From NCBI GenBank assembly GCA_902789175.1, contig CADANF010000004.1:35987-99986 (forward strand): 64,000 nucleotides of DNA, read 5' to 3'. Positions within the stretch are counted from its first letter, which is position 1, and each line of letters opens with the position of its first letter. The notes beneath the pieces are model-generated. The model saw only the letters and a list, made by a program, of their open reading frames with translations, was not told where the DNA came from and did not search any database. This document shows positions 43,999-59,466 of this stretch, piece after piece. Origin of the DNA: an uncultured Lachnospiraceae bacterium (lineage in GTDB: Bacteria > Bacillota > Clostridia > Lachnospirales > Lachnospiraceae). The translations under genes were made by a program, and so were the position numbers.

Positions 43999-44053
43999 GT
44001 TAACATAAAAATGGACCACAGTCCCGGGGGCTGTGGTCCATTTTTATGTCAAC
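43999..44053. repeat. 55-bp palindrome, copy 1 (forward centre)
   Basis: Ends GTTAACAT / ATGTCAAC; stem GGACCACAG / CTGTGGTCC; centre TCCCGGGGG. Nine bp after the M23 stop. With its flanking A5/T5 it should act as a terminator both ways. Confidence 0.95.
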
Positions 44054-44162
44054 TTTGTGAGGGGTAAAATATAGATTATTTACAGATTTTTTTAAGAAAG
44101 AATTAATAAATAAAATGAAAAAATAAGATAGAATCGAATATCATAAAAAAAGGGAGATACTT

Positions 44163-45362
44163 ATGAGGAAAAAACTTTTGGCGGCAATACTATGTACAGG
44201 TATTGTGATGTCAACGTTAGTTGGGTGTAAAGCGGGTAATAAGGGAAATAATGAGCAGAGTACTGCAGCCAGTCAGACTGAAGAGACAAGCGGTAATGAG
44301 ACCAGTGAAAATGACGCCACAAAAGGTGCGGCAACGGGAATTGATGCAAGTAATATTAATGGGGGAGGTACTTCAAAAAATGAAGCTATAAATCATGAGA
44401 CTGAGGAGAGTCTTAAGGAATATTTTGCAAACTATACATCTATAAAACAGGCAAAAACGAAAGAAAGCCATTATACATTTAATTTGAGAGCTATGAATAA
44501 TCTTGAAAAGGAATGCGGTATTGAAGATATTGAAAAATACTGGAATGGTTTTATCGATGCTTTGCTGGAAGGACGCACAGAATTTGAATGTCCTGATAAA
44601 GAGGTATTTAGCTACATTTATTATGTTCTTATACCGGATAATCTGCCTGCTGTGGGTGAGTGGCTGGATATGCCATGGGATAAGGAAGTAGAAGGTGGTA
44701 CGGTACATTTTACTTATAAAATCTCAACGGAAGAATTGAAAGAAAAAATCGAGGTACAAAAAAATGAAACCGAGAAGATTTTAAATGAAGTTCTCGAGGA
44801 TGATTATTCCGATTTTGAAAAGGCATTAGCTTTGTATATTTATTTTCAGGACAACTTTTACTATTACGAAGATTCTTCTGTATGGGGCGGGGTGATGCAT
44901 GTATTAAAAAATAAGAGCGGAATTTGCGGAGAATTTGCACAGACATACGTCTATCTTCTGACTCAGGCGGGTGTTGATGCGGGAACTGTTTCTAATAATG
45001 GGCATTGCTGGTCCATAGTCAGGATAAAGGGAAAGTATTATCATATCGATACTACCTGGGGACTGGGGCAGACAGATCTGGCTCATTTTATGCAGACAAA
45101 ATCCCAGAAGTTGAATACTAATAATGGTGGATGGAAAGATGCAATAGATTGCTGGATTGCGGATTTTAAAGCAAGTTATGGCAGGTTTTATCCGGATAAT
45201 GAATTTGATGATGAGGATGACAGCTGTGCAGCACTTTGGGGTTACTATAGTAAAATAAAGTGGAACAGGGAAGAAAAGAGATTATATATTTACAGCGAAT
45301 ATAACGAAGCGAATGAATATGCTCCTAAAATAACTGAGTTTGATTATAGTAAATTTGAGTAA
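44163..45362 (+). CDS. lipoprotein with transglutaminase-like domain
   Basis: A 399-aa protein. The signal peptide ends in lipobox LVGC (C22 lipidated), followed by a Ser/Thr/Asn/Glu linker to about 75. The transglutaminase/protease-like core shows Cys in SGICGEFAQ (about 256), His in NNGHCWS (about 281) and Asp in YHIDTTWG (about 296). It is likely a cell-surface protease-like or cross-linking enzyme. The gene end is duplicated just past the stop. Confidence 0.88.
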   Translation: MRKKLLAAILCTGIVMSTLVGCKAGNKGNNEQSTAASQTEETSGNETSENDATKGAATGIDASNINGGGTSKNEAINHETEESLKEYFANYTSIKQAKTKESHYTFNLRAMNNLEKECGIEDIEKYWNGFIDALLEGRTEFECPDKEVFSYIYYVLIPDNLPAVGEWLDMPWDKEVEGGTVHFTYKISTEELKEKIEVQKNETEKILNEVLEDDYSDFEKALALYIYFQDNFYYYEDSSVWGGVMHVLKNKSGICGEFAQTYVYLLTQAGVDAGTVSNNGHCWSIVRIKGKYYHIDTTWGLGQTDLAHFMQTKSQKLNTNNGGWKDAIDCWIADFKASYGRFYPDNEFDDEDDSCAALWGYYSKIKWNREEKRLYIYSEYNEANEYAPKITEFDYSKFE

Positions 45363-45385
45363 AAATAATAGTAAATTTGAGTAAA
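45348..45385. repeat. 19-bp tandem duplication across the lipoprotein stop codon
   Basis: ATAGTAAATTTGAGTAAAA, which holds the stop, recurs at once downstream with one small difference. Confidence 0.85.
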
Positions 45386-45393
45386 AAAAATTG

Positions 45394-45424
45394 TTGACTC
45401 CTACGTTACGTAATAGTTTATATT
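45394..45424 (+). promoter_or_regulatory. MerR-type promoter with 19-bp spacer
   Basis: TTGACT at 45394-45399 and TATATT at 45419-45424 are 19 bp apart. The spacer holds the dyad CTACGTTACGTAATAG. Over-long spacers with a central dyad are the signature of MerR-activated promoters. The next gene is a MerR regulator, so self-control is likely. Confidence 0.8.
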
Positions 45425-45443
45425 AAAGTTACACGAGGCAAAG

Positions 45444-45498
45444 CTTTACATAAAAGTGAACCATAGTCCCGGGGGCAATGGTCCACTTTTATGTAAAC
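45444..45498. repeat. 55-bp palindrome, copy 2 (forward centre), in the merR leader
   Basis: Outer arms TTTACATAAAAGTG / CACTTTTATGTAAA have changed on both sides together relative to other copies. It lies between the MerR-type promoter and the merR start. Confidence 0.93.
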
Positions 45499-45542
45499 TA
45501 AAATGGCGTGCCTAATGTGATTTTCTCAAGGAGGAAACGGAT

Positions 45543-46274
45543 ATGATGAAGATAAATGAAGTAAGTAAGCTTTCGGGAGTGAGTATACGCACCCTCCAGT
45601 ATTACGACAGTATAGGCTTATTAAAACCTGCAGGATATACTGACGCAGACTACAGACTGTATGACGATGCAGCCATTGAAAGATTACAAATGATACTTCT
45701 TTTCAAAGAATTGGAATTTCCTTTAAAGGATATAAAAAAAATCATTGATAGTCCTTCTTTCGATAAGAAAAAGGCGGTGGAACAGCAGATAGAACTTCTG
45801 ACGCTAAAGAGAGAACACATCGACAATCTTCTTAATCTGGCTCGTGGAATAAAAGAGATAGGAGTTAATAAAGTTATGGATTTTACAGCATTTGATAAAG
45901 AGAAAATAGATGAATATGCAAAAAAGGCAAAGGAAACCTGGGGAAATACCGAGGCTTATAAAGAATATGAAGAAAAAAGCAAGGGCAGGACTGACGCGGA
46001 TAATAAGAACCTGATGAAGGACCTTATGCTTATCTTCACTGAGTTTGGAGGCATGAAGGAAATGGATCCTTCTGATGAAATTCCTCAAAAACAGGTTAAA
46101 AAGCTTCAGAATTTCATTTCTAAGAATATGTATAACTGTACAAATGAGATCCTTTCAGGGCTTGGCAAATCCTATGCTGCAGAGGGTGAAATGAGAGATA
46201 ATATCGATAAAGCTGGTGGCGAGGGCACAGGCGTATTTGCCTCAAAAGCAATCAGTATTTATTGCGCGAGATAA
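45543..46274 (+). CDS. MerR-family regulator with TipAS-type domain
   Basis: A 243-aa protein. The N-terminal MerR helix-turn-helix (KINEVSKLSGVSIRTLQYYD, residues 3-22) and wing are followed by a dimer helix and a C-terminal TipAS domain (TWGNTEAYKEYEEKSKGRT; KAISIYCAR). TipA-type regulators bind thiopeptides and other drugs and activate their own promoter. AAGGAGG precedes the ATG by 7 bp. The self-type promoter with a 19-bp spacer lies 119 bp upstream. Confidence 0.92.
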   Translation: MMKINEVSKLSGVSIRTLQYYDSIGLLKPAGYTDADYRLYDDAAIERLQMILLFKELEFPLKDIKKIIDSPSFDKKKAVEQQIELLTLKREHIDNLLNLARGIKEIGVNKVMDFTAFDKEKIDEYAKKAKETWGNTEAYKEYEEKSKGRTDADNKNLMKDLMLIFTEFGGMKEMDPSDEIPQKQVKKLQNFISKNMYNCTNEILSGLGKSYAAEGEMRDNIDKAGGEGTGVFASKAISIYCAR

Positions 46275-46284
46275 CTCATACTAA

Positions 46285-46339
46285 GTTAACATAAAAATGA
46301 GCCATAGTCCCGGGGGCTGTGGCTCATTTTTATGTTAAC
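46285..46339. repeat. 55-bp palindrome, copy 3 (forward centre)
   Basis: Stem GAGCC / GGCTC replaces the usual GGACC / GGTCC on both sides, a compensatory change. Ten bp after the merR stop. Confidence 0.95.
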
Positions 46340-46546
46340 TATGTGGTGAGGAGATTGTTTTTATGGGGAGGCTTGGTAGGATATACATATCGTGAAGTCT
46401 TTCAAATTAAAATTTATGATTACAGAAATGTAAGATTGCGTAATGTTAAAATGACGATTTAATTCTTAGGATTTTATATTATGTACATGTAAGGTGAAAC
46501 AAACAAATGAAACAAAAATACATTTATTATAAAGGAGATAACGATC

Positions 46547-46771
46547 ATGAAAAAATCAATCAAAATTTTAACAATCACACTTGTAGCTATTCTTGTTGGA
46601 TTTGTGTTAGAATCTATTCAGGCAAAGGCATTATACAGCGGAGCAGACTTTACAGGAGCTTTAACTGCAAATATAGTTATTCTTTTAGCAACAATTTCTG
46701 CTGATAAAATGGAAAAGACTAAAAAAATAAAGAATTCAAAAAAGCTTCTTTATGTAGCGAATGCAAAATAA
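46547..46771 (+). CDS. 74-aa membrane protein
   Basis: MKKSIKILTITLVAILVGFV begins a first membrane helix; a second (GALTANIVILLATISADKM) follows, then a basic tail. AAAGGAG is upstream of the ATG. It overlaps an in-frame alternative start of the nuclease gene. Function unknown. Confidence 0.7.
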   Translation: MKKSIKILTITLVAILVGFVLESIQAKALYSGADFTGALTANIVILLATISADKMEKTKKIKNSKKLLYVANAK

Positions 46772-46787
46772 AAGCAGGCGGGACGTT

Positions 46788-47627
46788 ATGGGCAACAATA
46801 GAGATAAACGTAAATACAAAAGAATAAAAGTGATACATAGAAGTAGCATAACGTTAATACTTATGCTACTTTCTTTTGCTTTGGCGAAGGAATATTACAA
46901 AGAAAATGAAAAAGAAAGAGCCAAAGATACTATCCTCCTGCAGGATGAAAATGTGAAAGATGCAGGAGATTCAATTGGATTATTGAAGGATGAAAATAGG
47001 GAAGATTCATTTTCAGGCAGTTTGGTAGAAAAACATCCGGAAATGATATCTGAATATAGCGGTAGCATTTATGTGGAGCTTAATAATAATATTCCGGAAT
47101 TTTCAAAGCGGGATTTAGAGGAAAAAACGGGCGAGGAATATTATGAGCAAGACATTCTGGGGAGATGCAGAGGGGCATATGTTTTGCTGGACAAAAGCAT
47201 GATGCCGAAAGAAAAGAGAGGACCGATTGGTCAGATCAAGCCTAGCGGTTGGAAGCAGGCTAAATATCCGGGGGTAGTTGAATCAAATCCGCCATATCTC
47301 TACAACAGGTGCCATCTTGTGGCCTATGGGCTGTCGGGGCAGAATGCCAATGAGCGTAATCTAATAACGGGGACGAGGTATTTTAATGTAAATGGCATGC
47401 TGCCATTTGAGGAAAAGGTGATGAAATATCTGGAAGAAAATGATTCTCATGTTCTTTACCGGGTAACGCCATATTTTAAAGGTGATGAACTGATTTCAAG
47501 AGGCGTTGAAATGGAAGCTTATTCTGTTGAAGATAATGGGGCAGGTGTGTGTTTCCACGTTTTTATATATAACGTGCAGCCGGGGATAAGCATAGACTAC
47601 AGTACAGGTGAAAGCCGGCAGGAATAA
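46788..47627 (+). CDS. membrane-anchored or secreted DNA/RNA non-specific endonuclease
   Basis: About 279 aa from ATG 46788 (ATG 46761 is in frame). One N-terminal helix (SSITLILMLLSFALA) anchors or exports it. The catalytic region NRCHLVAYGLSGQNANERN fits the DRGHL-type His-Me endonucleases of family Endonuclease_NS_2, with the catalytic His and metal-binding Asn. Likely used for nucleic-acid scavenging or against DNA outside the cell. It is followed 6 bp after its stop by palindrome copy 4. Confidence 0.85.
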   Translation: MGNNRDKRKYKRIKVIHRSSITLILMLLSFALAKEYYKENEKERAKDTILLQDENVKDAGDSIGLLKDENREDSFSGSLVEKHPEMISEYSGSIYVELNNNIPEFSKRDLEEKTGEEYYEQDILGRCRGAYVLLDKSMMPKEKRGPIGQIKPSGWKQAKYPGVVESNPPYLYNRCHLVAYGLSGQNANERNLITGTRYFNVNGMLPFEEKVMKYLEENDSHVLYRVTPYFKGDELISRGVEMEAYSVEDNGAGVCFHVFIYNVQPGISIDYSTGESRQE

Positions 47628-47633
47628 AATTTA

Positions 47634-47688
47634 GTTAACATAAAAATGGACCACTGCCCCCGGGACTATGGTCCATTTTTATGTTAAT
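47634..47688. repeat. 55-bp palindrome, copy 4 (reverse centre)
   Basis: Centre GCCCCCGGGA, the reverse complement of copies 1-3, so the element is inserted in the other direction. The right end is GTTAAT. Confidence 0.94.
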
Positions 47689-47837
47689 CAGGCTGTCCTC
47701 ATGGCTCGTTTTATGTTAAAATTAATTCAGATATGAAAAAATGTGAAAATATGTAAGGCGTTTTAGATATTTAAGATATGAAAGATATGTAACATACTTG
47801 AGATATCTAAGAATTGTTAAGAAAGGTTTTTTGAAAA

Positions 47838-48563
47838 ATGCTGATAAAATACAGAATTTATATTGTAGCATTATTTTTAATCTTATTTTCGATACCAGTA
47901 ATGCTTATTTCAATTTTAAACAAAAACCCGAATGTTGCCAGGAAAATGATAATATTGATAATTATATGTCTTGCATATTTATTCATTGATGTTCTTGTCT
48001 TAGGCCCGGTTTTAAATGTAGGATTAGATTTTATACTTATTTTGTTTTATCTGGCTGGAGTCGTAAGCGGCGCAGTTTATATAATATCCATAGTGATCAA
48101 TATTGTAAAGAAGGTCAAACACAGCGGACAGCTTGAAAATGGATTCGGTTTCGATAAAGCTTGTAATATTATTATCGCATTGGTGATTATTTTTCCTATT
48201 GTCTTTATATCAAGCAGAGTGATAAGAGACTTAGTGGTTGTTAAAAACAGTGATATGATTCTTATTCTTCATTCCAGTGGAAATGGTACCATCGGATCAG
48301 GTGAAGACTTTGCTTATGCTGTTAAGGGTGATAAATGCAGGCAGTTTGACTTATACATTGACTATAATATTGAGAAGATTTTGCCTGATGGTTTTAAAGA
48401 ATTTGGTTCAAGGGGTGATGAAGCCTCTGCGGGAGGATATAAAGTATCTGTTAAAAATAGTGAGATAAGAATATGGAATGGTGAACAAAAGATATTTGAG
48501 TATGATCATCATAACGGAAGATATTTTAATATTTCACTAACGGAAGCATATATTAAAAAATGA
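47838..48563 (+). CDS. membrane protein of unknown function
   Basis: 241 aa. Four membrane helices in the first 125 residues (for example YIVALFLILFSIPVMLIS and IIIALVIIFPIVFISS), then an extracytoplasmic-type domain of about 110 residues (ILHSSGNGTIGSGEDFAYAV). No family recognised. Confidence 0.7.
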   Translation: MLIKYRIYIVALFLILFSIPVMLISILNKNPNVARKMIILIIICLAYLFIDVLVLGPVLNVGLDFILILFYLAGVVSGAVYIISIVINIVKKVKHSGQLENGFGFDKACNIIIALVIIFPIVFISSRVIRDLVVVKNSDMILILHSSGNGTIGSGEDFAYAVKGDKCRQFDLYIDYNIEKILPDGFKEFGSRGDEASAGGYKVSVKNSEIRIWNGEQKIFEYDHHNGRYFNISLTEAYIKK

Positions 48564-48693
48564 AATTGAAACTGTTCTAAAAAATTGTAATTTGGAAAAT
48601 ACTCTAAAATGACACCGGCTGGAATTGTATTTGAAAGATATGGTAAATTTAAAAGCAGCCAGGAGTATATTGTGGGGGGAGAAAAGTAAGTTG

Positions 48694-48921
48694 ATGGGAT
48701 TCTTTAAAAAAAAAGCTACATTAAAATCATTTAAATCATATGATAAAGAAAATCAAAAACCTGCGATAAGAGCAAGCATTTGTACCGGTGAGAAGGTGGC
48801 AGGTTTTATCAATGTGCACACCAAAGAATTTACAGATGTGATGCTCATAAGAAATAGCAGCGATCTGGAATTATTTAAGCAGGAGTATGATATTAAAGAA
48901 GATATAGATGTCATTTACTAA
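48694..48921 (+). CDS. 75-aa conserved-looking small protein
   Basis: MGFFKKKATLKSFKSYD starts it; then PAIRASICTGEKVAGFINVH, a pattern I have seen in small Lachnospiraceae proteins of unknown role. GGGGGGA lies 13 bp upstream (TTG 48691 is also possible). The stop codon TAA is fused to palindrome copy 5. Confidence 0.65.
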   Translation: MGFFKKKATLKSFKSYDKENQKPAIRASICTGEKVAGFINVHTKEFTDVMLIRNSSDLELFKQEYDIKEDIDVIY

Positions 48922-48967
48922 AAAATGAGCCATAGTCCCGGGGGCATTGGCCCATTTTTATGTAAAC
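48921..48967. repeat. 55-bp palindrome, copy 5 (forward centre, left end lost)
   Basis: The left GTTAACAT is missing: the element begins at AAAAATGAGCC directly on the stop codon of the preceding gene. Right end TTTTTATGTAAAC is kept. Confidence 0.92.
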
Positions 48968-49003
48968 TAAAATGATATAGCTCAATTAAAAAGGAGAAAA
49001 ATT

Positions 49004-49513
49004 ATGTGGGAAATGGATTATGACAAGGCAGCTAATGTGTGGATTGAAAGAGACAAGGGCATAGTTGCTATGGAAAATGATGCTTTAAAGGAAAGGATTG
49101 AGAAGTTTATTCAGGGACATAACACCTGTGCATTAGCTACAGCAAATGCTGACATGGTAAGAAATACTCCTATTGAGTATATGTTTTTTGATGGAGCATT
49201 TTATCTTCTTTCTGAAGGCGGATTAAAGTATAAATGTCTTAAAGACAATAAGAAAGTAGGAATCGCGATATTTGAATCCTTCAGCGGATTTGGAAAATTA
49301 AAGGGACTTCAGGTAGAGGGAGAGGCTTATATGATAGAGCCATTTTCAGAGGAATATCTTAAAGCTATCGAAGTTAAGAAGATTCCGGTAGAGGGAATGA
49401 AACGTCTTCCGATGCCTTTAAATCTTATTAAAGTTGTTCCAAAGGCATACGACTATCTTGAGTCAGAGCTTAAAAATGAAGGCTTCGGAGGAAGGCAGCA
49501 TCTGGATCTGTAG
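49004..49513 (+). CDS. pyridoxamine 5'-phosphate oxidase-fold protein
   Basis: A 169-aa flavin-binding split-barrel protein: FIQGHNTCALATANADMVRN, EYMFFDGAFYLLSEGG, and GLQVEGEAYMI follow the PNPOx-like pattern. Probably binds FMN or F420-like cofactors; the substrate is unknown. AAGGAG is 8 bp before ATG. Its 3' end is duplicated downstream. Confidence 0.85.
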   Translation: MWEMDYDKAANVWIERDKGIVAMENDALKERIEKFIQGHNTCALATANADMVRNTPIEYMFFDGAFYLLSEGGLKYKCLKDNKKVGIAIFESFSGFGKLKGLQVEGEAYMIEPFSEEYLKAIEVKKIPVEGMKRLPMPLNLIKVVPKAYDYLESELKNEGFGGRQHLDL

Positions 49514-49566
49514 TGAAGGAATCACATGGCTTCGGAGGAAGGCAACACTTGGATCTGTAGTGAAGG
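49489..49566. repeat. tandem duplication of the PNPOx gene 3' end
   Basis: GGCTTCGGAGGAAGGCA and GGATCTGTAGTGAAGG, which hold the last codons and stop, recur from 49530 with small differences. Confidence 0.85.
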
Positions 49567-49631
49567 CAGATCTGAAATTTGGTGAAGGGTTTATTTAATA
49601 TGTAGTATTTTTCATAAAGGGGGGAATTTTT

Positions 49632-50369
49632 ATGAAATATAGAGAATATGGATTTGGCAAAAAACATTCTATAATTTTGCTTCATGGTGGTGGGCTTTCA
49701 TGGTGGAATTACAAGGAAGTAGCGGAGATACTTCAAAACAAATACCATATTATCCTTCCTATTCTTGATGGACATGCGGACAGCGACAATCCATTTAGCT
49801 CAATAGAGGACAACGCCGAGGAGATAATAGAATTTATTGATGAGTATCTTGGTGGAAAAGTCTTATTCATAGGTGGTCTTTCTCTTGGGGCACAGATCCT
49901 TCTGGAAATGTTATCTCAAAGAAGTGACATCTGTAAATTTGCTATTGTAGAGAGTGCGGTAGTTATTCCATCCAAACTTACCAATGCGCTGATCGGTACA
50001 GCCTTAAATCTTAGTTATGGACTAATAAAATATGAGCGTTTTGCAAGAAAACAGTTTGATGCTTTGCATATTAAAGATGAGCTGTTTGATGATTATTACA
50101 GGGATAGTTGTGCCATTTCAAAGCATGACATGAAACAATTCCTTAAGGCTAACAGTTCGTATACCCTTAAGAAATCTGTAAGAAAAACAAAGGCCATTGT
50201 AAGGATTTATGTTGGATCTAAGGAGAATTCGGAAATAATCCAGTCCGCAGAATTGATTTCTAAAACTATTCGTTGTCCGATGATGATAATGAATGATATG
50301 TATCATGGGGAATTTTCATTAAACCACGCCAGTGATTATGCAAAAGCTATAGAGAATATGGTAAAATAG
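49632..50369 (+). CDS. alpha/beta hydrolase
   Basis: A 245-aa protein. The oxyanion-hole strand IILLHGGGLSWWNY, nucleophile elbow GGLSLGAQ (Ser at about 85) and a late histidine in YHGEFSLNH give a full catalytic triad. Cytosolic. Substrate unknown. GGGGGGAA precedes the ATG. Confidence 0.88.
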   Translation: MKYREYGFGKKHSIILLHGGGLSWWNYKEVAEILQNKYHIILPILDGHADSDNPFSSIEDNAEEIIEFIDEYLGGKVLFIGGLSLGAQILLEMLSQRSDICKFAIVESAVVIPSKLTNALIGTALNLSYGLIKYERFARKQFDALHIKDELFDDYYRDSCAISKHDMKQFLKANSSYTLKKSVRKTKAIVRIYVGSKENSEIIQSAELISKTIRCPMMIMNDMYHGEFSLNHASDYAKAIENMVK

Positions 50370-50399
50370 CATATCTTATAGCATAAAGAAGGGCTTAAA

Positions 50400-51338
50400 A
50401 TGAATTACGAAAATGAAACTGATAATACATTTAATATAAAAGCGGGGGATAATGCCAGGTACACTTCAAAAGAAATGTCACCCCCTGTGTATAACGCCGA
50501 ATACACTTCGCAGGAATCTACAAGCTCAGCGGCAGAGAGATTGCAGGAAAAAAGAAATGAAGTTTTCAAATCAATGCTTCTTGTTATGGTCGGAGTGCTT
50601 CTGCTTTTCCTTCCACCAGTAGGAATAGCAGTGATCGTTATAGCATTTCTAAAAATGTCAAAAGCACAGAAAGAGATGAAAGGACTTTATAAGGAAGCCT
50701 TCGTTCGTGAGCCATTAGCTAACAATTTTCAAAATGTCATTTATGAACCAGAAAATGGATTTTCTGAGAATTATGTAAGAGATTTTCAACTTTGTAAAAT
50801 GGGAAATACATTTCATTCCGAGGACTATATCAAAGCAAGTTATAAGGATATTGATTTTGAAGTTTCTCAGGTTTGCGTAAGATATGTAGATAATTCAGAT
50901 GACAATAACTATTCAAAGACATATTTTGATGGAAGAATGATGGTCTTTAGTTTCCCTGAAAAGCTGGTATCACAGGTTGCAGTATTCAGCAGGAAATTTA
51001 AAGAAAGGTCAGAAAGCATTAAGAAGCAAAAAAAGGATAAAGTCCAGTTGGAGAATGTGCAGTTTAATAAAGAATTTGATGTATATTCACCGGTGGGGGA
51101 AGATGCATTTTACCTTATAACGCCACATTTTATGGAACATTTGCAGGAATTATGCAGAAAGCATCAGAGCGTTGCGATGAACGTAGTGGGAAATAAAATA
51201 GTTCTTGCCTTTAACGAGCCGGGAAATAATGCTTTTGATTCAAGCGCAGCAGTAGGAAAGCTGGATTACGATAAAGAAATGCAAAAAGTTCAGGCTGAAA
51301 TAGATGATATAAAGAACTTTATATCGCTTGTTAGATAG
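50400..51338 (+). CDS. DUF3137-like membrane protein
   Basis: A 312-aa protein. A polar N-terminus (1-55) is followed by one or two membrane helices (MLLVMVGVLLLFLPPVGIAV) and a cytoplasmic domain similar to DUF3137 (YIKASYKDIDFEVSQV; GRMMVFSFPEK). The C-terminus is a short coiled coil. The final G of the TAG stop is the first base of palindrome copy 6. Confidence 0.75.
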   Translation: MNYENETDNTFNIKAGDNARYTSKEMSPPVYNAEYTSQESTSSAAERLQEKRNEVFKSMLLVMVGVLLLFLPPVGIAVIVIAFLKMSKAQKEMKGLYKEAFVREPLANNFQNVIYEPENGFSENYVRDFQLCKMGNTFHSEDYIKASYKDIDFEVSQVCVRYVDNSDDNNYSKTYFDGRMMVFSFPEKLVSQVAVFSRKFKERSESIKKQKKDKVQLENVQFNKEFDVYSPVGEDAFYLITPHFMEHLQELCRKHQSVAMNVVGNKIVLAFNEPGNNAFDSSAAVGKLDYDKEMQKVQAEIDDIKNFISLVR

Positions 51339-51392
51339 TTAACATAAAAATGGACCTAGGTCCCGGGGGCAGTGGTCCATTTTTATGTTAAC
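51338..51392. repeat. 55-bp palindrome, copy 6 (forward centre)
   Basis: Starts on the last base of the upstream stop (TAG + TTAAC). Stem GGACC / GGTCC, inner part unpaired (TAGG against CAGT). Ends GTTAAC. Confidence 0.95.
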
Positions 51393-51424
51393 GTTAGTTC
51401 GAGGATCAGGGAGTAGATATTAAT

Positions 51425-52546
51425 ATGCAACAGGAAAATAACAGAGAAAAAGTCATAGTAAAAGTAAGCGTGATAGGGATTCTGGCAAATGTATTTCTGG
51501 CCGGATTTAAAGCAGCAATAGGATTGATCAGTAATTCCATCGCCATTGTACTTGATGCAGTAAACAATCTGTCGGATGCGCTTAGTTCCGTGATTACTAT
51601 TATCGGCACAAAGCTGGCAAGCCGCGAGCCGGATAAAAAACATCCTTTTGGATATGGAAGAATAGAATATTTAAGTTCCCTGGTGATAGCAATCATTGTG
51701 CTTTACGCAGGGCTGACATCATTCATAGAATCATTAAAAAAGATCTTTAAACCGGAGAAACCGGAGTATTCAATAGTTTCACTGATTATCGTTGGTGTGG
51801 CAGTGCTGGTAAAGATAGGACTGGGACTTTATGTAAAAAAAACCGGAGAAAGGGTAAATTCTTCTTCCCTTGTAAATTCGGGAAAAGATGCACTTTTGGA
51901 TTCGGTAATTTCTTCAGCAACGCTGGTGGCTGCCATGGTATTTACATTTGCGGGCGTATCTCTTGAGGCATATCTGGGTGCTGTTATATCCCTTGTGATT
52001 TTAAAAGCTGGATTTGAGATGCTTTCCGAAACAATATCAAATCTCATCGGTGAGCCGGGAGACGTGCAGCTGATAAAGGATATTAAAAAGACGGTAGTAT
52101 CATTTGACGAGGTAAAAGGGGCATACGATCTGATACTTCATAATTATGGGCCTGAAACTTACAATGGTTCAATTCATGTAGAGGTGGATGACAAATGTTC
52201 CATCACCAGGCTGGATGAGCTGACAAGAAGCATAATGAAAGAGGTTTACAAGAAACACGGTGTGATCCTTACTGCTGTTGGAGTTTATTCTATCAATACC
52301 GAGGATGAGAAGGTAAAATCTCTTAAAAAGGAGATAGAGGAAATTGTTCTTTCTCATGAGTTTGTAAAGCAGCTTCATGGATTTTTCTACAGTAAAAATG
52401 ATAACTCCATCCGTTTCGATGTGGTTATAAGTTTTGATGCACCAAGCAGACAGGCCGTTTTTAAGGATATAATAAACGACCTGCAATATAAATATCCGGA
52501 TGTGGAATTTGCTTTATCAATGGATATGGATTACGGAGAACTATAA
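51425..52546 (+). CDS. cation diffusion facilitator transporter
   Basis: A 373-aa CDF protein that exports divalent metals (Zn, Mn, Fe or Cd) using protons. Six membrane helices lie in 1-210; metal residues fit the family (SIAIVLDAVNNLSDALSSV with D-x3-D, KHPFGYGRIEYLSS, and SGKDALLDSVISS). A cytoplasmic tail contains two ferredoxin-like domains, the second (from about 290) extra. Flanked by palindrome copies on both sides. Confidence 0.93.
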   Translation: MQQENNREKVIVKVSVIGILANVFLAGFKAAIGLISNSIAIVLDAVNNLSDALSSVITIIGTKLASREPDKKHPFGYGRIEYLSSLVIAIIVLYAGLTSFIESLKKIFKPEKPEYSIVSLIIVGVAVLVKIGLGLYVKKTGERVNSSSLVNSGKDALLDSVISSATLVAAMVFTFAGVSLEAYLGAVISLVILKAGFEMLSETISNLIGEPGDVQLIKDIKKTVVSFDEVKGAYDLILHNYGPETYNGSIHVEVDDKCSITRLDELTRSIMKEVYKKHGVILTAVGVYSINTEDEKVKSLKKEIEEIVLSHEFVKQLHGFFYSKNDNSIRFDVVISFDAPSRQAVFKDIINDLQYKYPDVEFALSMDMDYGEL

Positions 52547-52554
52547 CTCGAGAA

Positions 52555-52609
52555 GTTAACATAAAAATGGACCATAGTCCCGGGGGCTATGGTCCATTTT
52601 TATGTCAAC
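52555..52609. repeat. 55-bp palindrome, copy 7 (forward centre)
   Basis: The best-paired copy: GGACCATAG / CTATGGTCC is perfect. Right end ATGTCAAC. It lies between the CDF gene and a converging gene, where it can end both transcripts. Confidence 0.96.
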
Positions 52610-52636
52610 CACATTGAGCAGTGGCAAGAGCTTTTT

Positions 52637-53185
52637 TTAGGCTTTCCTGTATTTCATATTTTCTCTTTTAAGAAGTCCCTCTGATATCATGTCTCTTCTT
52701 ATGGTGCAGAAATCATCGTGGAAATCGGCAATGATGATGTTTACCTCGCGCTCACTATATTCCTTACCTGGCTCGAAAGCCTTTGCGATTTCCTCTAAAA
52801 TGATCAGCTCTTTCTTTCGCTGCGCTGGAATACTCTTTAATTTTCCATATTCAAAAAAACTGTCGATAACTTTCTTTCTATAGGCATTGTCACGCTCCTG
52901 CTGGAGGTTCATTTCCTCGGACTTTTCCTTTAAAATATCCAGGATTGAGACATTAAAAACCTCATCATTAATAGAATAAATGGTGTAATACTGTTCCTTC
53001 CTGGAAGTGATAGCCCCAGCGTCCATCAGCTTTTTTAAGTGAAATGATACCGTGGCGGGGGTTAATGAAAGTCTTTCCGAAAGCAAAGAGACATACATAT
53101 CTTTTTCCATCAAGGTCTTTAAAATTTGGATGCGGGACTTGTCCGCGAGACATTTAAACAGGGTAATAGCCTGGTTTTCAGTCAT
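52637..53185 (-). CDS. ArsR-family regulator with DUF2087 tail
   Basis: A 182-aa protein. Winged helix at 1-80 (CLADKSRIQILKTLMEKDMY; LSLTPATVSFHLKKLMDAG) of ArsR type without the usual metal CxC. The C-terminal 80 residues (RKKELIILEEIAKAFEPGKEY; DFCTIRRDMISEGLLKR) match DUF2087. Target unknown. Confidence 0.9.
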   Translation of the reverse strand: MTENQAITLFKCLADKSRIQILKTLMEKDMYVSLLSERLSLTPATVSFHLKKLMDAGAITSRKEQYYTIYSINDEVFNVSILDILKEKSEEMNLQQERDNAYRKKVIDSFFEYGKLKSIPAQRKKELIILEEIAKAFEPGKEYSEREVNIIIADFHDDFCTIRRDMISEGLLKRENMKYRKA

Positions 53186-53220
53186 AAATCTACCTCTTTT
53201 CGTATAATAAAAAACGTATC

Positions 53221-53325
53221 AGCAAATGAATAAATCAGCCAAAATATAATACAACTGAGCAAATAAATCAGCCAGTATATAATACAAATAATCAGATAAA
53301 TCAGCTAGCATATAATATATCTGAC
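53221..53325. repeat. about 36-bp AT-rich tandem repeat, three copies
   Basis: Units at 53221, 53258 and 53294 each hold ATAAATCAGC and a TATAATA -10-like string. They lie between two minus-strand genes. Confidence 0.75.
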
Positions 53326-53330
53326 TTAAA

Positions 53331-53684
53331 TTATAAGTTGAAAATCTCATTAAATTCTTTTGTTATTTCACTAACAGCAGCCATCTTGCTTTCCTCGATT
53401 AAAATCTTATGGCTGTCTTCGTGGACCTTTGCAGCCTCAAGAGACTTGCTCCACTGAGAGGTAATCTTTTCAAAAGCAGGTGGAAATGCAGCCGCGATTT
53501 TATTTTCACCATTAGATTTAAGAGCCACATTATATACCGCCTTGCTGATATCGTAGATATTAGCCTTGGCCTTTAAAATGTTACTTTCATCTTTTCTTCC
53601 ATCTGCTGCAAGTGAAGCAACCTCTTCCTCTACAGCTTTCTTACGAGTATCTAAAAAATCAAAAAATAAGTTTGTTTGTTCCAT
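53331..53684 (-). CDS. 117-aa helical protein of unknown function
   Basis: Begins MEQTNLFFDFLDTRKKAVEE; all-helical and charged, without membrane segment or cysteine. AAAGGA upstream of the ATG on the minus strand supports the start. Both sides carry tandem repeats. I do not recognise it. Confidence 0.65.
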   Translation of the reverse strand: MEQTNLFFDFLDTRKKAVEEEVASLAADGRKDESNILKAKANIYDISKAVYNVALKSNGENKIAAAFPPAFEKITSQWSKSLEAAKVHEDSHKILIEESKMAAVSEITKEFNEIFNL

Positions 53685-53721
53685 AGTCGTAGTTTCCTTT
53701 CTTAGTTAATTTTAAAATTTA

Positions 53722-53886
53722 CGAGCGTGCAATCAACTAATATCCATTAAAACGCGAGCGTGCAGTCAGATGATTTACTTAAAATGCCTGTGGGCAGTTA
53801 AGAAATATCGTGAAATATATGAGTGTGCAGTCAAGTGATATCCTTAAAAACGCCAGTGGGCTTGGGATATATGTGAGTGCAGACTT
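53722..53886. repeat. 33-bp degenerate tandem repeat, 4-5 copies
   Basis: Units begin at 53722, 53755, 53788, 53821 and perhaps 53854, sharing GAGYGTGCAGTCA and a later TTAAAAACGC. They fill much of the 434-bp gap before the padR-type gene. The rest of that gap is AT-rich with one operator-like site. Confidence 0.8.
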
Positions 53887-54040
53887 AGGCATGGTATGGA
53901 TATTAAAATTATTTAATTACTCATCGTATTAAATATCTGTATTGCGATTAGATAAACATCTAAATGGATAATAAAATTGTTTTAGATAAATGTCAAGGGG
54001 TTGATTAATAATATAAAAAATGATATTACAATAATATATG

Positions 54041-54061
54041 AATATATCAAAATGATATATT
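54041..54061. promoter_or_regulatory. inverted repeat, likely PadR operator
   Basis: AATATATC-AAAAT-GATATATT, perfect 8-bp arms, 58 bp before the padR-type start. PadR proteins commonly bind ATAT-rich dyads at their own promoter. Confidence 0.6.
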
Positions 54062-54118
54062 AGAAATACTGGTATAACAAGGGGATAATTTAATATAGAT
54101 AATATTGAGGGGCTATAT

Positions 54119-54652
54119 ATGGCAAGAGAAAGAAAAATAGATATGGTGATTCTTGGATTACTAAGTCATGAAGATCTAACGGGATATGATATAAAAAAGC
54201 GAATTGACGGAGCGATAAGTTTTTTCTGGAAGGGAAGTTTTGGTAACATTTATCCGGCATTAAAGGATATGGAAGCTAGCGGGATGATCCAAAAAAAGGC
54301 TGCCACAGAAGGTGGAAGGGAAAAGATCAGCTATCATATTACTAGCACTGGAAAGAAAGTACTTAAGGAATGGCTCAAAGAAGAACAGGTCGTAAATGAA
54401 TTAAAGTATGAAACATTACTAAAATTATTCTTTGGTGGCAATGTGGGGAAGGCGGTGGCTATCCGTAACATTGAGGCTTTTGAAAAAAAGATTGAAAAAG
54501 AGCTGATGATCCTGAAGAAGTATTGCGAGACATTAAAAGATAAACTGAGTGAAGAGGACCATTTGTATTTTTATCTCACAGCTTCATTTGGAGTGAAGAG
54601 TTACGAGGCATATTTGGAGTGGTGTCAGGAGGCAAAGCAGTTACTGGGATGA
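54119..54652 (+). CDS. PadR-family transcriptional regulator
   Basis: A 177-aa protein: N-terminal winged helix (MVILGLLSHEDLTGYDIKKR; SFGNIYPALKDMEASGMI) and C-terminal helical Vir_act_alpha_C-type dimer domain. The next gene, a hydrolase, begins within 20 bp of its end, so they form an operon. Confidence 0.93.
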   Translation: MARERKIDMVILGLLSHEDLTGYDIKKRIDGAISFFWKGSFGNIYPALKDMEASGMIQKKAATEGGREKISYHITSTGKKVLKEWLKEEQVVNELKYETLLKLFFGGNVGKAVAIRNIEAFEKKIEKELMILKKYCETLKDKLSEEDHLYFYLTASFGVKSYEAYLEWCQEAKQLLG

Positions 54653-54669
54653 AAACAAAGGAGAAGAAA

Positions 54670-55452
54670 ATGAGCGCGTTATATGTGATATTAAAAATTG
54701 TGATGTGGGTGCTGGTAACATTTTTTGCTTCAGATGCGGTCATGCAATTCATTTCATATTCATTTTATAAGGGCGACAGGCAGCTTAAGGACGTGAAATA
54801 CAGCCCAGTGAAGCTAGAGATAAATGACTCTTTGACAGGTTACGGTTACAACCTGGATGTGGAGGCCGATAAAGTGATACTGTTTTTTGGGGGATCATTT
54901 TATGTGGCATATAATTCGGTCGGAATGTATGGCGGGAGATTTGACTGCCCGTTTCTTTCGGTGGATTATTATGGAACACAAGAAAGCAAAGGGAAAATGA
55001 ACCTTAAAACGATGCAAAAGTCTGCTGAGGAATTGTATGATTATGCGGCGGCGAAATATCCGGGAAAGAAAATAATTGTTATGGGCCATAGCTATGGCTG
55101 TGGGATGGCAGCATATCTGGCAAGTGTAAGAAAATGCGACCGATTGGTGCTTGCTTCGGGATATCGCACATGCGCGGATTTGTATAACAAGATAATACCC
55201 ATTTTCTGGGGACCATTTCAAATATTTATAAAAAATAATATCAGGGTAGACCTGTACGCAGAGAATACCAGCTGCCCGGTTACTATCATTGAATCATATG
55301 ATGATAAGACGCTTAGCGCAGAGCTTCAGGAGAAGCTGGCAGCGTGTTATGAGAACGCAGATTTAAAGATTTTTAATGGAATTAAACATGAAGATTACTT
55401 CCTCACTGATGAAGTGATCGGATATATTAAGAGCACCTGCGACTTGCAGTAG
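54670..55452 (+). CDS. membrane-anchored alpha/beta hydrolase
   Basis: About 260 aa from ATG 54670, with GGAG 6 bp upstream; ATG 54649 overlaps the padR-type stop. One N-terminal helix (VILKIVMWVLVTFFASDAVM) anchors it. The fold has ILFFGGSF, nucleophile GHSYGCGMA, and a late GIKHEDYFL histidine. Likely controlled by the PadR neighbour. The last base of the TAG stop begins palindrome copy 8. Confidence 0.85.
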   Translation: MSALYVILKIVMWVLVTFFASDAVMQFISYSFYKGDRQLKDVKYSPVKLEINDSLTGYGYNLDVEADKVILFFGGSFYVAYNSVGMYGGRFDCPFLSVDYYGTQESKGKMNLKTMQKSAEELYDYAAAKYPGKKIIVMGHSYGCGMAAYLASVRKCDRLVLASGYRTCADLYNKIIPIFWGPFQIFIKNNIRVDLYAENTSCPVTIIESYDDKTLSAELQEKLAACYENADLKIFNGIKHEDYFLTDEVIGYIKSTCDLQ

Positions 55453-55506
55453 TTAACATAAAAATGGACCATAGCCCCCGGGACCTAGGTCCATTTTTAT
55501 GTTAAC
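55452..55506. repeat. 55-bp palindrome, copy 8 (reverse centre)
   Basis: Starts on the G of the upstream TAG. Centre GCCCCCGGGA, ends GTTAAC. Confidence 0.95.
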
Positions 55507-55555
55507 CGAGTAGAACTTTACAAAGTGAATGTTTGATAGTATTATAAAGTTAATT

Positions 55556-55586
55556 CGGTGGCGACCGAGTCGGCGGCGACCGAATA
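55556..55586. repeat. GC-rich inverted/direct repeat
   Basis: GGCGACCGA occurs twice and TTCGGT pairs with ACCGAA at the outer ends. A related CTCGGTGGCCACC follows copy 9 at 57079. It sits between copy 8 and the ATPase gene. Confidence 0.5.
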
Positions 55587-55646
55587 AAAATAATGAAGCG
55601 AATTGGCTAAATAAAGTAGCTATCTCTCTTAAAGGAGTCTGATAAT

Positions 55647-57026
55647 ATGGCATTTTATGGAAGAAATAAGGAACTTAATAGAATAAAAAAAGAATTAGGA
55701 TCAGATGAAATGAGGATGTGCCTCATTTATGGAAGACGAAGAGTTGGAAAGAGTGAACTTGTGAAGCAGGCAATAAAAGAGTCGGCTATAAGGAGCATTT
55801 ACTATGAGTGTAAGCAGGTTAAAGAAGAAAGTAATGTTTCGAGCATTTGCGATGTCATTTCCGACACCTTTGACATGCCAAAGTTAGGATATAATAAGAT
55901 TGAAGAGCTTCTGGATTACATTTTTCAGCTGGCGATAAAGGAAAATCTGATACTCATATTGGATGAATACCCATATCTTAGAGAAAATGTTAAAGGAATG
56001 GACAGTATCCTTCAGGCTTTAGTGGATAAATATAGGGAGACAAGCAAACTAAAGCTTATTATATTAGGTTCATACGTGGATATCATGAAGTCACTCTTAG
56101 AAAAGTCAAATCCATTGTTTGGAAGAGTAGATCTGGCCTTAAACCTAAAGCAAATGGATTATTATGAATCAGCATTGTTCTATCCTGCTATGTCGGACGA
56201 AGATAAGGTAAGAATATACTCAGTATTTGGGGGGATTCCATATTTTAACAGACTAATAGATGATAGAAAAAGTGTAAAAGATAATATTATTGATCTTATT
56301 GCTTCTTCAGGTGCTCGTCTTGAAAATGAGGTTACGATGTACCTTGGTGCAGAAATTTCCAAGATTGTAAATGCAAATGAAGTATTTGATGCACTTTCCA
56401 GAGGTTTTTCGAAATATAGTGACATTTTATCTCAGTCACATGTTTCTAGCGGACCAACATTGGTGGACGTTCTTGATAAGCTGATAAGGATGGAAGTTGT
56501 AGAAAGACAAGCACCAATAAATGATGAAACAAACAAAAAGAAAACAGGTTATTATATATGCGATAATCTTTCAAATTTCTATTTTAGATACATTTTTAAA
56601 TATGCCTCTCAGCTTAATATAATGGATCCGGAAATATTTTATAAAAAATATATTGAGAAGGATTTTGAAGAATATTACGTTCCTCACAAATTTGAGGAAA
56701 TCTGCAAGCAGTATCTTATCAGGCAGAATCTGTTGGGAAACATAGACCCTGTTATCGAAAAGATTGGAAAATATTACTATGACAATCCTGCGCAGCGTAC
56801 AAATGGTGAGTTTGACGTGGTGACGCAGGATAAGAAGGGATATGTTTTCTACGAGGTTAAATTTAGAAAAAAGAAAATATCTAAAGAAGTGATTGAAGAA
56901 GAAATCCAGCAGGTTAAGAATACAGGGCTTGATTGCTATAAATATGTCTTTATTTCAAGAGCAGGATTTACTGAAAATGAAACCGATGAAATTAAGCATC
57001 TTGAGCTAAAAGAACTCTACAATTAG
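55647..57026 (+). CDS. AAA ATPase with DUF234 nuclease-like tail
   Basis: A 459-aa protein. P-loop YGRRRVGKSELV at about 29-40, Walker B LILILDEYPYL at about 97-107, sensor LIILGSYV. The C-terminal DUF234 region carries a PD-(D/E)XK-like pattern (GEFDVV then YVFYEVKFRKK at about 392-416). Same broad class as the ATPase before the Wadjet operon, but a different subfamily. Function unknown. The last base of its stop begins copy 9. Confidence 0.85.
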   Translation: MAFYGRNKELNRIKKELGSDEMRMCLIYGRRRVGKSELVKQAIKESAIRSIYYECKQVKEESNVSSICDVISDTFDMPKLGYNKIEELLDYIFQLAIKENLILILDEYPYLRENVKGMDSILQALVDKYRETSKLKLIILGSYVDIMKSLLEKSNPLFGRVDLALNLKQMDYYESALFYPAMSDEDKVRIYSVFGGIPYFNRLIDDRKSVKDNIIDLIASSGARLENEVTMYLGAEISKIVNANEVFDALSRGFSKYSDILSQSHVSSGPTLVDVLDKLIRMEVVERQAPINDETNKKKTGYYICDNLSNFYFRYIFKYASQLNIMDPEIFYKKYIEKDFEEYYVPHKFEEICKQYLIRQNLLGNIDPVIEKIGKYYYDNPAQRTNGEFDVVTQDKKGYVFYEVKFRKKKISKEVIEEEIQQVKNTGLDCYKYVFISRAGFTENETDEIKHLELKELYN

Positions 57027-57080
57027 TTAACATAAAAATGAACCACTGCCCCCGGGACTATGGTCCACTTTTATGTCAAC
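57026..57080. repeat. 55-bp palindrome, copy 9 (reverse centre)
   Basis: Starts on the G of the upstream TAG. Stem GAACCAC on the left and GGTCCAC on the right is imperfect; right end ATGTCAAC. Confidence 0.94.
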
Positions 57081-57129
57081 TCGGTGGCCACCAAATTAAA
57101 TTTTGAAATAAGTGAAAGTGTGGTAAAAC

Positions 57130-58749
57130 ATGTATTATCTTATGAATAAGGACAAGCTGGTCCTTGAATTTATTAAAAATGAAAATGAGTTTGATACAGA
57201 CGTTACATATAAAATCCTAAAGCAGTATGAGAGCACGCCTTTTGGCTTTCAGGATATAACATACTGGATAGAGCACCGAAAGGCGGCCAGATATAATTCC
57301 TGCCTGAATGAGGTAATGAAACGAGCCGAGCTGTATGATAATGAGAGTTTCATTAAAAGAACCCATGCGGCAGGTATAAATGATACATTCTGGATCAAAG
57401 CAGCCGATGAAAATATTAGTTGGTCCGAGGTTTCATTATATAGAAATCAGTTTTCCAGCCTTATATCAAAGCTGGCATTTGAAGGATGTGAAGCAGGAAA
57501 CATAGTCGGCTCTGAATTACATAGCGACAAAGCAAGATATATTAACGCGCCAGAATTAACCAGCGAAGGTTCATTTAGAAAATGCTTCATGAAGGAAGAT
57601 AAATCTGGCGAGTTTGGCAGTGACATTTATTATTATAAAAGAGAAGGTGATCTTGGGCCGGGTAGAGAGCCCTATTGCGAAATATTAGCTGCAGAGATTG
57701 CTAAAGTAATAGCGCCGGGGCTTGCTTCGGTAAAATATGATCTTTGCAGTCTAGATGGAGTCATAGCGACTAAATGCAACATTTTTACAAATGAAAATGT
57801 GGGCTATGCGTCCTACTCAAAGATAAACACGTCAAGATCATTTTCTTTAAGGGATGTCTGGAAATATTACTGTGAGATAGGGGCAGAGCAGGAATTCAGG
57901 GAACTGCTTATAATCGATTCCTTATGCTTTAATCAGGACAGGCACAGCGGCAACTTCGGAGTTCTGTTTGACAATGACAGCATGAAAGTTATTGGCATGG
58001 CGCCGGTATTTGACCTTAATCTGTCAATGTTTCCATATGTTGAGATGGAGGAATTTGACAATATAGGTGATAAGCTATATGGTTACAGCCCTAAATTAGG
58101 CGAAGACTTTACACAGATAGGCCAGCTGGCATTATATGAACCACACTCCTCGGGACCATGGACCACAAAAAATGGACCACACTCCCCGGAACCATGGACC
58201 ACAAAAAATGGACCACAGCCTCCGGGACCTAGGTCCATAATTATGTCAACTGGATCTGGGGTGTTAAATGATTCGCTGCGTGACAGGGTAAAAGATATTT
58301 TAGATTATAGATTTAAATTTAGAGGGGACGAGTCATTTTCAGAGGAAAGGGTGAGAAAGATAGAAGATATCGTCCATAGACAGGCGAAGGCAATCCTTTC
58401 AAATGAAACGCTGCTCACTCAGGATGTATTTTTCTCCGAGGAAGCAGAACTTGCTAAGGAAAGACATCTTAAAGCGGCCTTGGCAAAGGATGAGATGAAT
58501 GACTTCTATGAACAGATTGATGAAAGTGAGCTCTCGCCAAATACCTTATTAAGTCTTTGCGAGGATTCGGAAATAGTAAGACTTTATTTTGAATATGATA
58601 ATTTTGAATTTGTAGTGGATTTTCTGGAGAAAAGAACAATCCTGCAAAAGAATGCTAAGAGCATTACAATGGAGACTTTGATCAAAGAAGCCCCGGAATT
58701 TTACAATGATGTCATTAAGATAAAAGAAAAATTAACAAACATTGGTTAA
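57130..58749 (+). CDS. HipA-kinase-like protein carrying an in-frame palindrome-core triplication
   Basis: A 539-aa protein. The middle resembles the HipA C-terminal kinase: catalytic loop FNQDRHSGNFGVL (about 266-278) with D and N, followed by PVFDLNLSMF, the metal-binding Asp. The N-terminus lacks the usual HipA beta-barrel. Residues 338-377 (PHSSGPWTTKNG, PHSPEPWTTKNG, PQPPGPRSIIMSTG) are encoded by three 36-bp copies of the 55-bp palindrome core. Before and after this insert the protein reads as continuous helical sequence. No HipB-like partner adjoins it. The stop codon lies in copy 10. Confidence 0.75.
   Translation: MYYLMNKDKLVLEFIKNENEFDTDVTYKILKQYESTPFGFQDITYWIEHRKAARYNSCLNEVMKRAELYDNESFIKRTHAAGINDTFWIKAADENISWSEVSLYRNQFSSLISKLAFEGCEAGNIVGSELHSDKARYINAPELTSEGSFRKCFMKEDKSGEFGSDIYYYKREGDLGPGREPYCEILAAEIAKVIAPGLASVKYDLCSLDGVIATKCNIFTNENVGYASYSKINTSRSFSLRDVWKYYCEIGAEQEFRELLIIDSLCFNQDRHSGNFGVLFDNDSMKVIGMAPVFDLNLSMFPYVEMEEFDNIGDKLYGYSPKLGEDFTQIGQLALYEPHSSGPWTTKNGPHSPEPWTTKNGPQPPGPRSIIMSTGSGVLNDSLRDRVKDILDYRFKFRGDESFSEERVRKIEDIVHRQAKAILSNETLLTQDVFFSEEAELAKERHLKAALAKDEMNDFYEQIDESELSPNTLLSLCEDSEIVRLYFEYDNFEFVVDFLEKRTILQKNAKSITMETLIKEAPEFYNDVIKIKEKLTNIG
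58138..58251. repeat. palindrome core amplified inside the HipA-like gene
   Basis: 36-bp units start at 58141, 58177 and 58213, each with GGACCACA and a CCTCCGGGA-type centre (reverse orientation). The last runs into TCCATAATTATGTCAAC, a recognisable right arm of the 55-bp element. Confidence 0.93.
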
Positions 58750-58799
58750 CATAAAAATGGACCACTGCCCCCGGGACTATGGTCCACTTTTATGTTAAC
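58745..58799. repeat. 55-bp palindrome, copy 10 (reverse centre)
   Basis: GGTTAAC at its left end supplies the TAA stop of the HipA-like gene at 58747-58749. Ends GTTAAC. Confidence 0.95.
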
Positions 58800-59427: not shown

Positions 59428-59444
59428 GTGGACCTATGGTCCAC
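59428..59444. repeat. palindrome fragment (core lacking CCCGGG)
   Basis: GTGGACC-TAT-GGTCCAC is the stem of the 55-bp element with the centre deleted. Confidence 0.7.
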
Positions 59445-59449
59445 TTATC

Positions 59450-59466
59450 GGTTACAAATTGTAACC
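59450..59466. promoter_or_regulatory. 17-bp operator-like palindrome
   Basis: GGTTACAA-A-TTGTAACC, perfect arms, 24 bp before the hydrolase start. A regulator site or short RNA hairpin. Confidence 0.5.

Follow-up and report, generated by a model that had tools for sequence, protein, structure and literature searches.

Palindromes of 55 bp as apparent edges of gene cassettes in a Lachnospiraceae genome, with a TIRYT-like transposase as their candidate enzyme

What does a 55-bp palindrome do when it stands again and again behind the genes of an accessory region? The question is raised by a stretch of 64,000 nucleotides from a gut bacterium of the Lachnospiraceae (the window; C4:35987-99986 of a source genome, G000, of 2.75 Mb in 78 contigs), whose host probably belongs in or beside Pseudobutyrivibrio, judging from the named relatives of a neighbouring gene. 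The sequence-only reading of this DNA took its palindromes for a mobile or amplified terminator. Comparison with related genomes indicates that they bound gene cassettes, and that what comes and goes is a unit of one or more genes with one palindrome, the breakpoints falling within palindromes. We place just on the probable side the reading that they are a terminal inverted repeat (TIR) or repetitive extragenic palindrome (REP) type of family, belonging to a Y1 HUH transposase of the TIRYT kind and serving as cassette edges in integron-like arrays.

All ten palindromes reported between 43999 and 58799 are present at their sites (Table 1), although the one reported at 48921 is a 55-bp copy beginning at 48913, with a decayed left arm. 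Both centre orientations occur, as had been described, with the GTCCCGGGGGC centre on the + strand in six copies and on the - strand in four; in window positions 1-43998, where none had been noticed, a weight-matrix scan found no match with a score of at least 22. Further, a covariance model built from the ten window copies gave at least 127 either-strand matches in the source genome, which merge to at least 68 distinct places (counted from the best 150 of 3343 candidates). Of these places, 52 are packed into about 97 kb, or about 3.5% of the genome, on contigs C4, C12, C37, C38 and C46, against about 2.4 expected from an even distribution, and the clustered copies are laid out as gene-palindrome-gene arrays. 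The genome-wide search thus bears out an amplified, array-clustered, gene-capping family, and the even spread named beforehand as contrary to it was not seen. Rfam gave no match at gathering scores in window positions 43000-60500.

The palindromes are closely fitted to gene ends. In 157 of 215 copies from four genomes, the 3′ end of an open reading frame (ORF) lies at most 15 bp away or overlaps, with peaks at -5, -1 and 0 (orthologous copies counted apart, ORFs called by a simple script), and the palindrome often provides the stop codon. The centre, GTCCCGG(G/A)G, hardly varies, even in its loop, among copies picked with a matrix that contains this centre, and stem positions covary (Fisher p 0.0006-0.003 for four pairs tested in 86 distinct full copies, uncorrected for kinship). 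Truncated copies mostly keep an A4-stem-T4 core and lack one outer arm, which is the arm away from the stop in 33 of 41 cases, while 19 more have no single facing stop; this bias is only suggestive, as loss of the stop-side arm may delete the very stop that the count needs. Separately, a second centre type (GGGGACAG and its kin) with the same arms as the 55-bp element, and matching the TIR motif GGGGWSAS, was seen at L089 and other loci of G061, in eight of 14 strict matches, and one further example was seen by eye in G062 on C96 near 34.9 kb.

Across genomes, the element appears confined to a narrow clade within the scans made. Five of 61 genomes, the source included, match at 1e-5, with many matches in the source and in G018 and one or two weak ones in G004, G038 and G041. 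Among four genomes reached through named loci, G061 (which holds L089) and G062 (which holds L090) are rich in elements and G063 and G064 have none. Matching arrays are present in three close relatives, G018, G061 and G062. None of 396 other genomes of the family matched at 1e-6 under strict filters, with 14 candidates scored per listed genome, and no match was found in viral contigs (searched with one pattern) or in plasmids and phages (one consensus each).

The arrays of these relatives differ by cassettes. G000 and G018 are mostly about 91-97% identical where they align, with some stretches far lower, and at ten loci the element-gene(s)-element unit of one genome corresponds to a lone element in another, where the outer flanks are joined at the palindrome. 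One of the two states is present in two assemblies at seven of the ten. Moreover, 12 of 16 array indels of at least 300 bp between G000 and G018 have an element on the short side, seven of them with both long-side ends at elements, and the same is true of the short side in 12 of 18 between G000 and G062; for comparison, elements plus margins cover 5-6.5%. These counts come from those two genome pairs, other pairs overlapping with them. They exclude replacements in which each side exceeds 200 bp (5 for G018, 6 for G062) as well as indels lying outside arrays (1 and 9, respectively). Because gene-plus-element units differ between genomes while element-only differences are rare, the palindromes are best read as cassette boundaries. 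As a separate candidate, cassette-wise allelic replacement was rejected, since interspecies divergence shows no tendency to switch at elements (permutation p 0.38 and 0.28).

The copy left behind at a cassette locus is informative about where the join falls. At seven loci the single element matches the downstream copy beginning with the stop-proximal arm, and one hybrid element puts the switch between positions 4 and 21; the 222-aa locus is uninformative. The retained palindrome is thus mostly the copy downstream of the missing gene, which puts the join in the stop-proximal arm and favours a fixed join site there.

Which enzyme could act at such sites? The source genome has three Y1_Tnp matches: an interrupted one above the cut-off, one below it, and an intact one above it. 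The sequence-only reading had suggested looking for a transposase encoded in trans, and its likely counterpart is a TIRYT-like protein encoded between inverted copies on C38. Its HVH motif and tyrosine are invariant in nine homologues, its C-terminal tail resembles a helix-turn-helix (HTH) when judged by eye, and its profile matches the solved E. coli TnpA-REP 4er8 (E 1.6e-6). The gene has a dN/dS of about 0.13-0.19, indicating purifying selection, and the protein occurs in all four element-rich genomes (97% identical in G062, 89% in G018 and 87% over 125 aa in G061, at a contig end). Distant homologues occur elsewhere, in eight of 21 other genomes of the same genus (at most 39% identity) and in four of 14 genomes of the order (at most 42%). 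The TIR motif GGGGWSAS is present in eight of 14 strict matches of G061 and in none of 41 in G000, 42 in G018 or 39 in G062; a GGGGGACTGTCCCC centre was seen in one G062 copy that does not fit the strict pattern. A GTAG/CGTC tag lies near an edge in two of 215 copies and anywhere in four, and the element is accordingly not classed as a GTAG or CGTC REP. By its tail and the GGGGWSAS centres of part of the G061 copies, the protein fits the TIRYT group as characterized in PMC3733652 and PMC6006769. Overall, the sequences give good support to a tie between the palindrome and one conserved TIRYT-like protein.

Under this reading, the TIRYT would fold, cut and rejoin palindromes on single-stranded DNA, and could excise a cassette or insert one at another palindrome copy; the joins, whether made by the TIRYT or by RecA, would fall in the stop-proximal arm. 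Each palindrome would also act as a transcription terminator in both directions, which would make any order of cassettes tolerable. Comparison of genomes displays the cassette behaviour itself; the enzyme's part in it we infer.

Several observations weigh against this reading. Ten of 34 array indels have no element at the short side. No cassette was found clearly relocated to another array, the candidates being 74-80% identical, and the failure of divergence to switch at elements suggests that ordinary recombination also acts. Homologous recombination between 55-bp repeats would give identical junctions. The tally of joins is small and post hoc: the 450-aa locus, counted among the seven, gives a mixed picture at its right, the 256-aa locus contradicts them when the G018 parents are used, and the 168-aa locus, which has a degenerate tandem copy, is mixed. 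The element alone can also differ, clearly so at G018 C41:1196, where G062 has none; two more sites that differ have a remnant or a rearranged flank. In addition, 21 of 67 G000 elements are unpaired in G018, partly because cassettes interrupt the flanks, and the relatives' stretches were fetched for holding elements, so that element-free sites elsewhere could be missed. The TIRYT-like protein falls under the NCBIfam REP_Tyr_transpos equivalog cut-off (63.6 against 80 bits), and other enzymes of the genome, XerD and two 322-aa proteins, pass NF040815 ("site-specific tyrosine recombinase/integron integrase"). Finally, the relatives are draft genomes, in which repeats can mislead assemblers.

In a rival account no dedicated enzyme is at work: dispersed 55-bp repeats would recombine through RecA or slippage, deleting the intervening DNA and joining transferred DNA with matching ends, after a TIRYT had merely spread the palindromes earlier. 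This is a serious possibility, which we nevertheless rate well short of an even chance. Homologous recombination of repeats would be expected to leave one-copy products, ordinary allelic recombination seems active in the arrays, and some indels show microhomology or no element at all. However, if crossovers were scattered along the 55 bp, a mixture would result, in contrast to the downstream copy retained at the seven loci; adjacent copies are often opposite in centre orientation and only partly identical; and the TIRYT-like gene is under purifying selection.

The sequence-only reading itself, a mobile or amplified terminator (similar to a miniature inverted-repeat transposable element or a REP) that inserts alone 3′ of genes and has the arrays as favoured targets, now appears improbable. 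It would account for a hairpin with A/T tracts placed tightly after stops, for a transposase in trans, for tandem element doublets and for the one clear element-only difference. Termination, though, also belongs to the reading that we favour. Two copies form hairpins of about -39 to -40 kcal/mol whichever strand is folded (z -8.1 to -9.9), and the copy at 57026 folds at -33.1 kcal/mol (z -6.1) on one strand and -17.8 (z -1.4) on the other. A bidirectional terminator is predicted from the hairpin and the A/T tracts, with strong both-strand folding in two of three copies, but a consensus terminator scan flagged no element, with six terminator-like sites in the region against 9.4 expected in shuffles. 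The scan may have missed the elements because the stem continues through the T-tract, and from hairpin and tracts we predict that they probably terminate transcription.

Insertion of the element alone is not supported. When orthologous sites with side-by-side flanks were compared, as the sequence-only reading had proposed, the element was kept at 39 of 39 sites from G000 to G018 (37 by matrix and two on reading, one of these degenerate) and at 37 of 37 from G000 to G062 (36 by matrix and one, with another centre, on reading). It was likewise kept at 37 of 38 sites from G018 to G000, with a rearranged flank at the one left over; at 33 of 34 from G062 to G000, where the exception retains half an element; at 31 of 32 from G018 to G062 (29 by matrix, two on reading), C41:1196 being the exception; and at 27 of 27 from G062 to G018. 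These directed comparisons overlap each other. The element alone thus rarely differs, and the variable part is mostly a gene plus an element. The same is indicated by the singleton at C2:57621, the sole singleton comparable with element-free relatives, which lies 3′ of a 198-aa ORF: G036, G019, G011 and G025 have neither gene nor palindrome, and their flanking genes are adjacent. We take the ORF to begin like a prepilin, and its flanking genes to be YebC-like and MurE-like. Among the other relatives, of eight fetched for this site, G002 has different genes there, and the MurE-like gene is unmatched there in G027, G001 and G007. The same palindrome has been joined in G062 by another unit, 3.6 kb long. 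On these comparisons, this singleton is a lone gene-plus-element cassette, which arrived with its gene, contrary to insertion of a terminator alone. For the C29 singleton, two element-free genomes match on the left flank only.

It is scarcely probable that a tyrosine recombinase, either integron-like or XerD/XerS, acts here in a dif-module or attC-like exchange. The outer arms, GTTAACATAA/TTATGTTAAC, presumably resemble an XerD-binding half-site, and most copies retain their GTNAAC ends. Five tyrosine recombinases are encoded in the genome, namely XerD (338.8 against a cut-off of 329.6), an XerS-like protein below its cut-off, two Xer-like proteins of 322 aa and one of 453 aa; three of the five pass NF040815 as noted above. 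However, none of the five reaches the cut-offs of the dedicated integron-integrase models, the best scores being 115.9 against 265 for TIGR02249 and 72.9 against 435 for NF011946, and one Bacillus-type dif pattern had no match with up to three mismatches. Moreover, the arms are almost fully paired, and the palindromes of G011 and G002 described below have the same layout without these arms. The 322-aa recombinases are at L003 (C17) and L002 (C76); the C17 copy adjoins an ORF that by eye resembles parts of restriction specificity proteins, and is perhaps a phase-variation invertase.

That assemblers collapsed or misjoined contigs at repeats is very improbable, even with draft relatives and several arrays on short contigs, given the repetition of states in second assemblies and the diversity of the copies (115 distinct sequences among 169).

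Arrays of genes and palindromes around a TIRYT recur in other genomes. In G011 and G002, two other species with distant TIRYTs, the palindrome that flanks the gene is a different one, GGGACGGTTCTG...CAGAACCGTCCC, and the 13-mer GGGGACGGTTCTG has 26 to 103 matches in G002, G010, G011 and G020, while among 33 other genomes four have one match and 29 have none. Around these TIRYTs are gene-palindrome arrays (Table 1), in which the nearest facing stop lies within 63 bp in eight of 11 palindrome clusters of the G011 stretch and within 27 bp in all seven of the G002 stretch. When 30 relatives were searched for gain or loss of cassettes in the G011 system, only stretches of about 0.7-1.4 kb of its 11-kb array region were matched, in four genomes; the longer G002 match ends together with the gene at whose 3′ end the G011 array starts. 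It is therefore the layout, rather than the sequence, that recurs with other TIRYTs, a conclusion that these genomes support well. More tentatively, and somewhat short of an even chance, TIRYTs may treat their palindromes much as integrons treat attC sites, cutting accessory genes out, inserting them and building up a stock of them. Firmicutes would then have an integrase-free counterpart of integrons, with at least two palindrome/enzyme pairs in one genus. Replicated exchange of cassettes in nature, at the palindromes of such an enzyme, would assign it a concrete, testable role. If true, this would be integron-like gene stockpiling, perhaps by other chemistry, in a phylum where integrons are extremely rare; the survey PMC9024848 counts one complete integron in Firmicutes.

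Table 1. Palindromes, cassettes and related features; positions without a contig are those of the window, in G000.
Feature	Position	Strand	Context
55-bp palindrome, centre +	43999..44053	+	9 bp 3′ of M23 peptidase ORF 43063-43989
55-bp palindrome, centre +	45444..45498	+	81 bp 3′ of transglutaminase-like ORF
55-bp palindrome, centre +, GAGCC/GGCTC stem variant	46285..46339	+	10 bp 3′ of MerR-TipAS ORF
55-bp palindrome, centre -	47634..47688	-	6 bp 3′ of DNA/RNA non-specific endonuclease ORF
55-bp palindrome, left arm decayed	48913..48967	+	
55-bp palindrome	51338..51392	+	first base completes TAG stop of DUF3137 ORF
55-bp palindrome	52555..52609	+	8 bp 3′ of cation-efflux ORF; 27 bp from 3′ end of convergent ArsR/DUF2087 ORF
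55-bp palindrome, centre -	55452..55506	-	completes stop of alpha/beta-hydrolase ORF
55-bp palindrome, centre -	57026..57080	-	left edge of cassette absent from G018
Gene cassette, 539-aa ORF 57130-58749	57081..58744	+	missing in G018, where one palindrome joins both outer flanks
Degenerate tandem element-derived 36-nt repeats	~58136..58250	+	in frame within the 539-aa ORF
55-bp palindrome, centre -	58745..58799	-	right edge of the 57081..58744 cassette; gives TAA stop
Half-element remnant	59431..59455	+	counterpart site in G061/G062: nearly full copy, right arm decayed, 58800-59434 unit missing
Cassette locus, G000	57026-58745		unit in the window
Cassette locus, G000	C37:5807-6604		SfsA
Cassette locus, G000	C37:7849-13912		DUF5724/DUF4132, 6 kb
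Cassette locus, G000	C38:18384-19784		236-aa ORF
Cassette loci in relatives			GNAT protein; 4Fe-4S protein; 450-aa ORF without Pfam match; peptidase S51; two-component pair; 3.6-kb four-ORF unit
TIRYT-like Y1 HUH protein, 261 aa	C38:17549-18331		between inverted palindromes 16770(+) and 18384(-)
Gene-palindrome arrays around distant TIRYTs (L290-L293)	G011 C11:29.3-50.5 kb; G002 C1:366.7-380.9 kb		

What lies between copies in the window is mostly a single gene of accessory function (endonuclease, MerR-TipAS regulator, cation efflux, PNPOx, hydrolases and ATPase). For the ATPase/DUF234 ORF at 55647-57023 there is a match to PDC-S27, one of the candidate defence families of PADLOC (E 3.9e-41). 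Palindrome sequence has turned coding at 58136-58250, and related degenerate copies are found at the same gene in G061 (C233) and G062 (C23). Other repeats were also seen: a 39-nt direct repeat at 49481-49566, with copies 47 bp apart, spans the 3′ end of a PNPOx-like ORF, and three 33-bp direct repeats at 53229-53327 lie between the ArsR/DUF2087 ORF and a 117-aa ORF. Outside the window, a separate dispersed repeat of about 340 bp has copies 81-95% identical in G000, on C37 near 18.7, 25.2 and 28.6-32.7 kb and on C38 near 6.5 kb, and part of it adjoins the element at C38:16770.

Four known systems invite comparison. In open-access literature, outside which most subscription journals lie, we recognised no report of gene cassettes bounded by REP or TIR palindromes. 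The dif modules of Acinetobacter are built on 28-bp XerC/XerD sites. They resemble the present arrays in having genes bounded by short recombination sites and shuffled as modules (PMC6449649 and others), but they are described mainly from plasmids, as opposed to 55-bp hairpins on seemingly chromosomal contigs here. A literal integron was considered and rejected, as no protein exceeds the dedicated integron-integrase cut-offs and there are no attC R″/R′ boxes with extrahelical bases. The attC boxes have the consensus RYYYAAC/GTTRRRY, from which the consensus arms AGTTAAC/GTTAACT differ by one base each. Integron arrays and CALIN (PMC9024848) nevertheless share with the palindromes single accessory genes with a 3′ palindromic site, gain and loss at these sites, and lone sites together with arrays within one genome; they differ in their integrase, with no protein above IntI cut-offs here, and in the site, which here is nearly fully palindromic and occurs in both orientations. 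REP/RAYT systems (REPtrons) combine high-copy intergenic palindromes with a domesticated single-strand transposase, and E. coli TnpA-REP cuts and recombines REP in vitro (PMC8266576); in contrast, the present element has no GTAG/CGTC tag, is 55 bp long, lies mostly in clustered arrays and shows cassette behaviour. While gene-cassette arrays and gene-plus-repeat exchange are not described in the parts consulted of PMC3733652 and PMC6006769, the TIRYT/TIRtron systems presented there (TnpA-REP subclass 2.1, with a C-terminal HTH) resemble the palindromes and their candidate enzyme in the Y1 HUH protein, the HTH-like tail, the flanking inverted palindromes that form a repeat family and, in part of the G061 copies, the GGGGWSAS motif.

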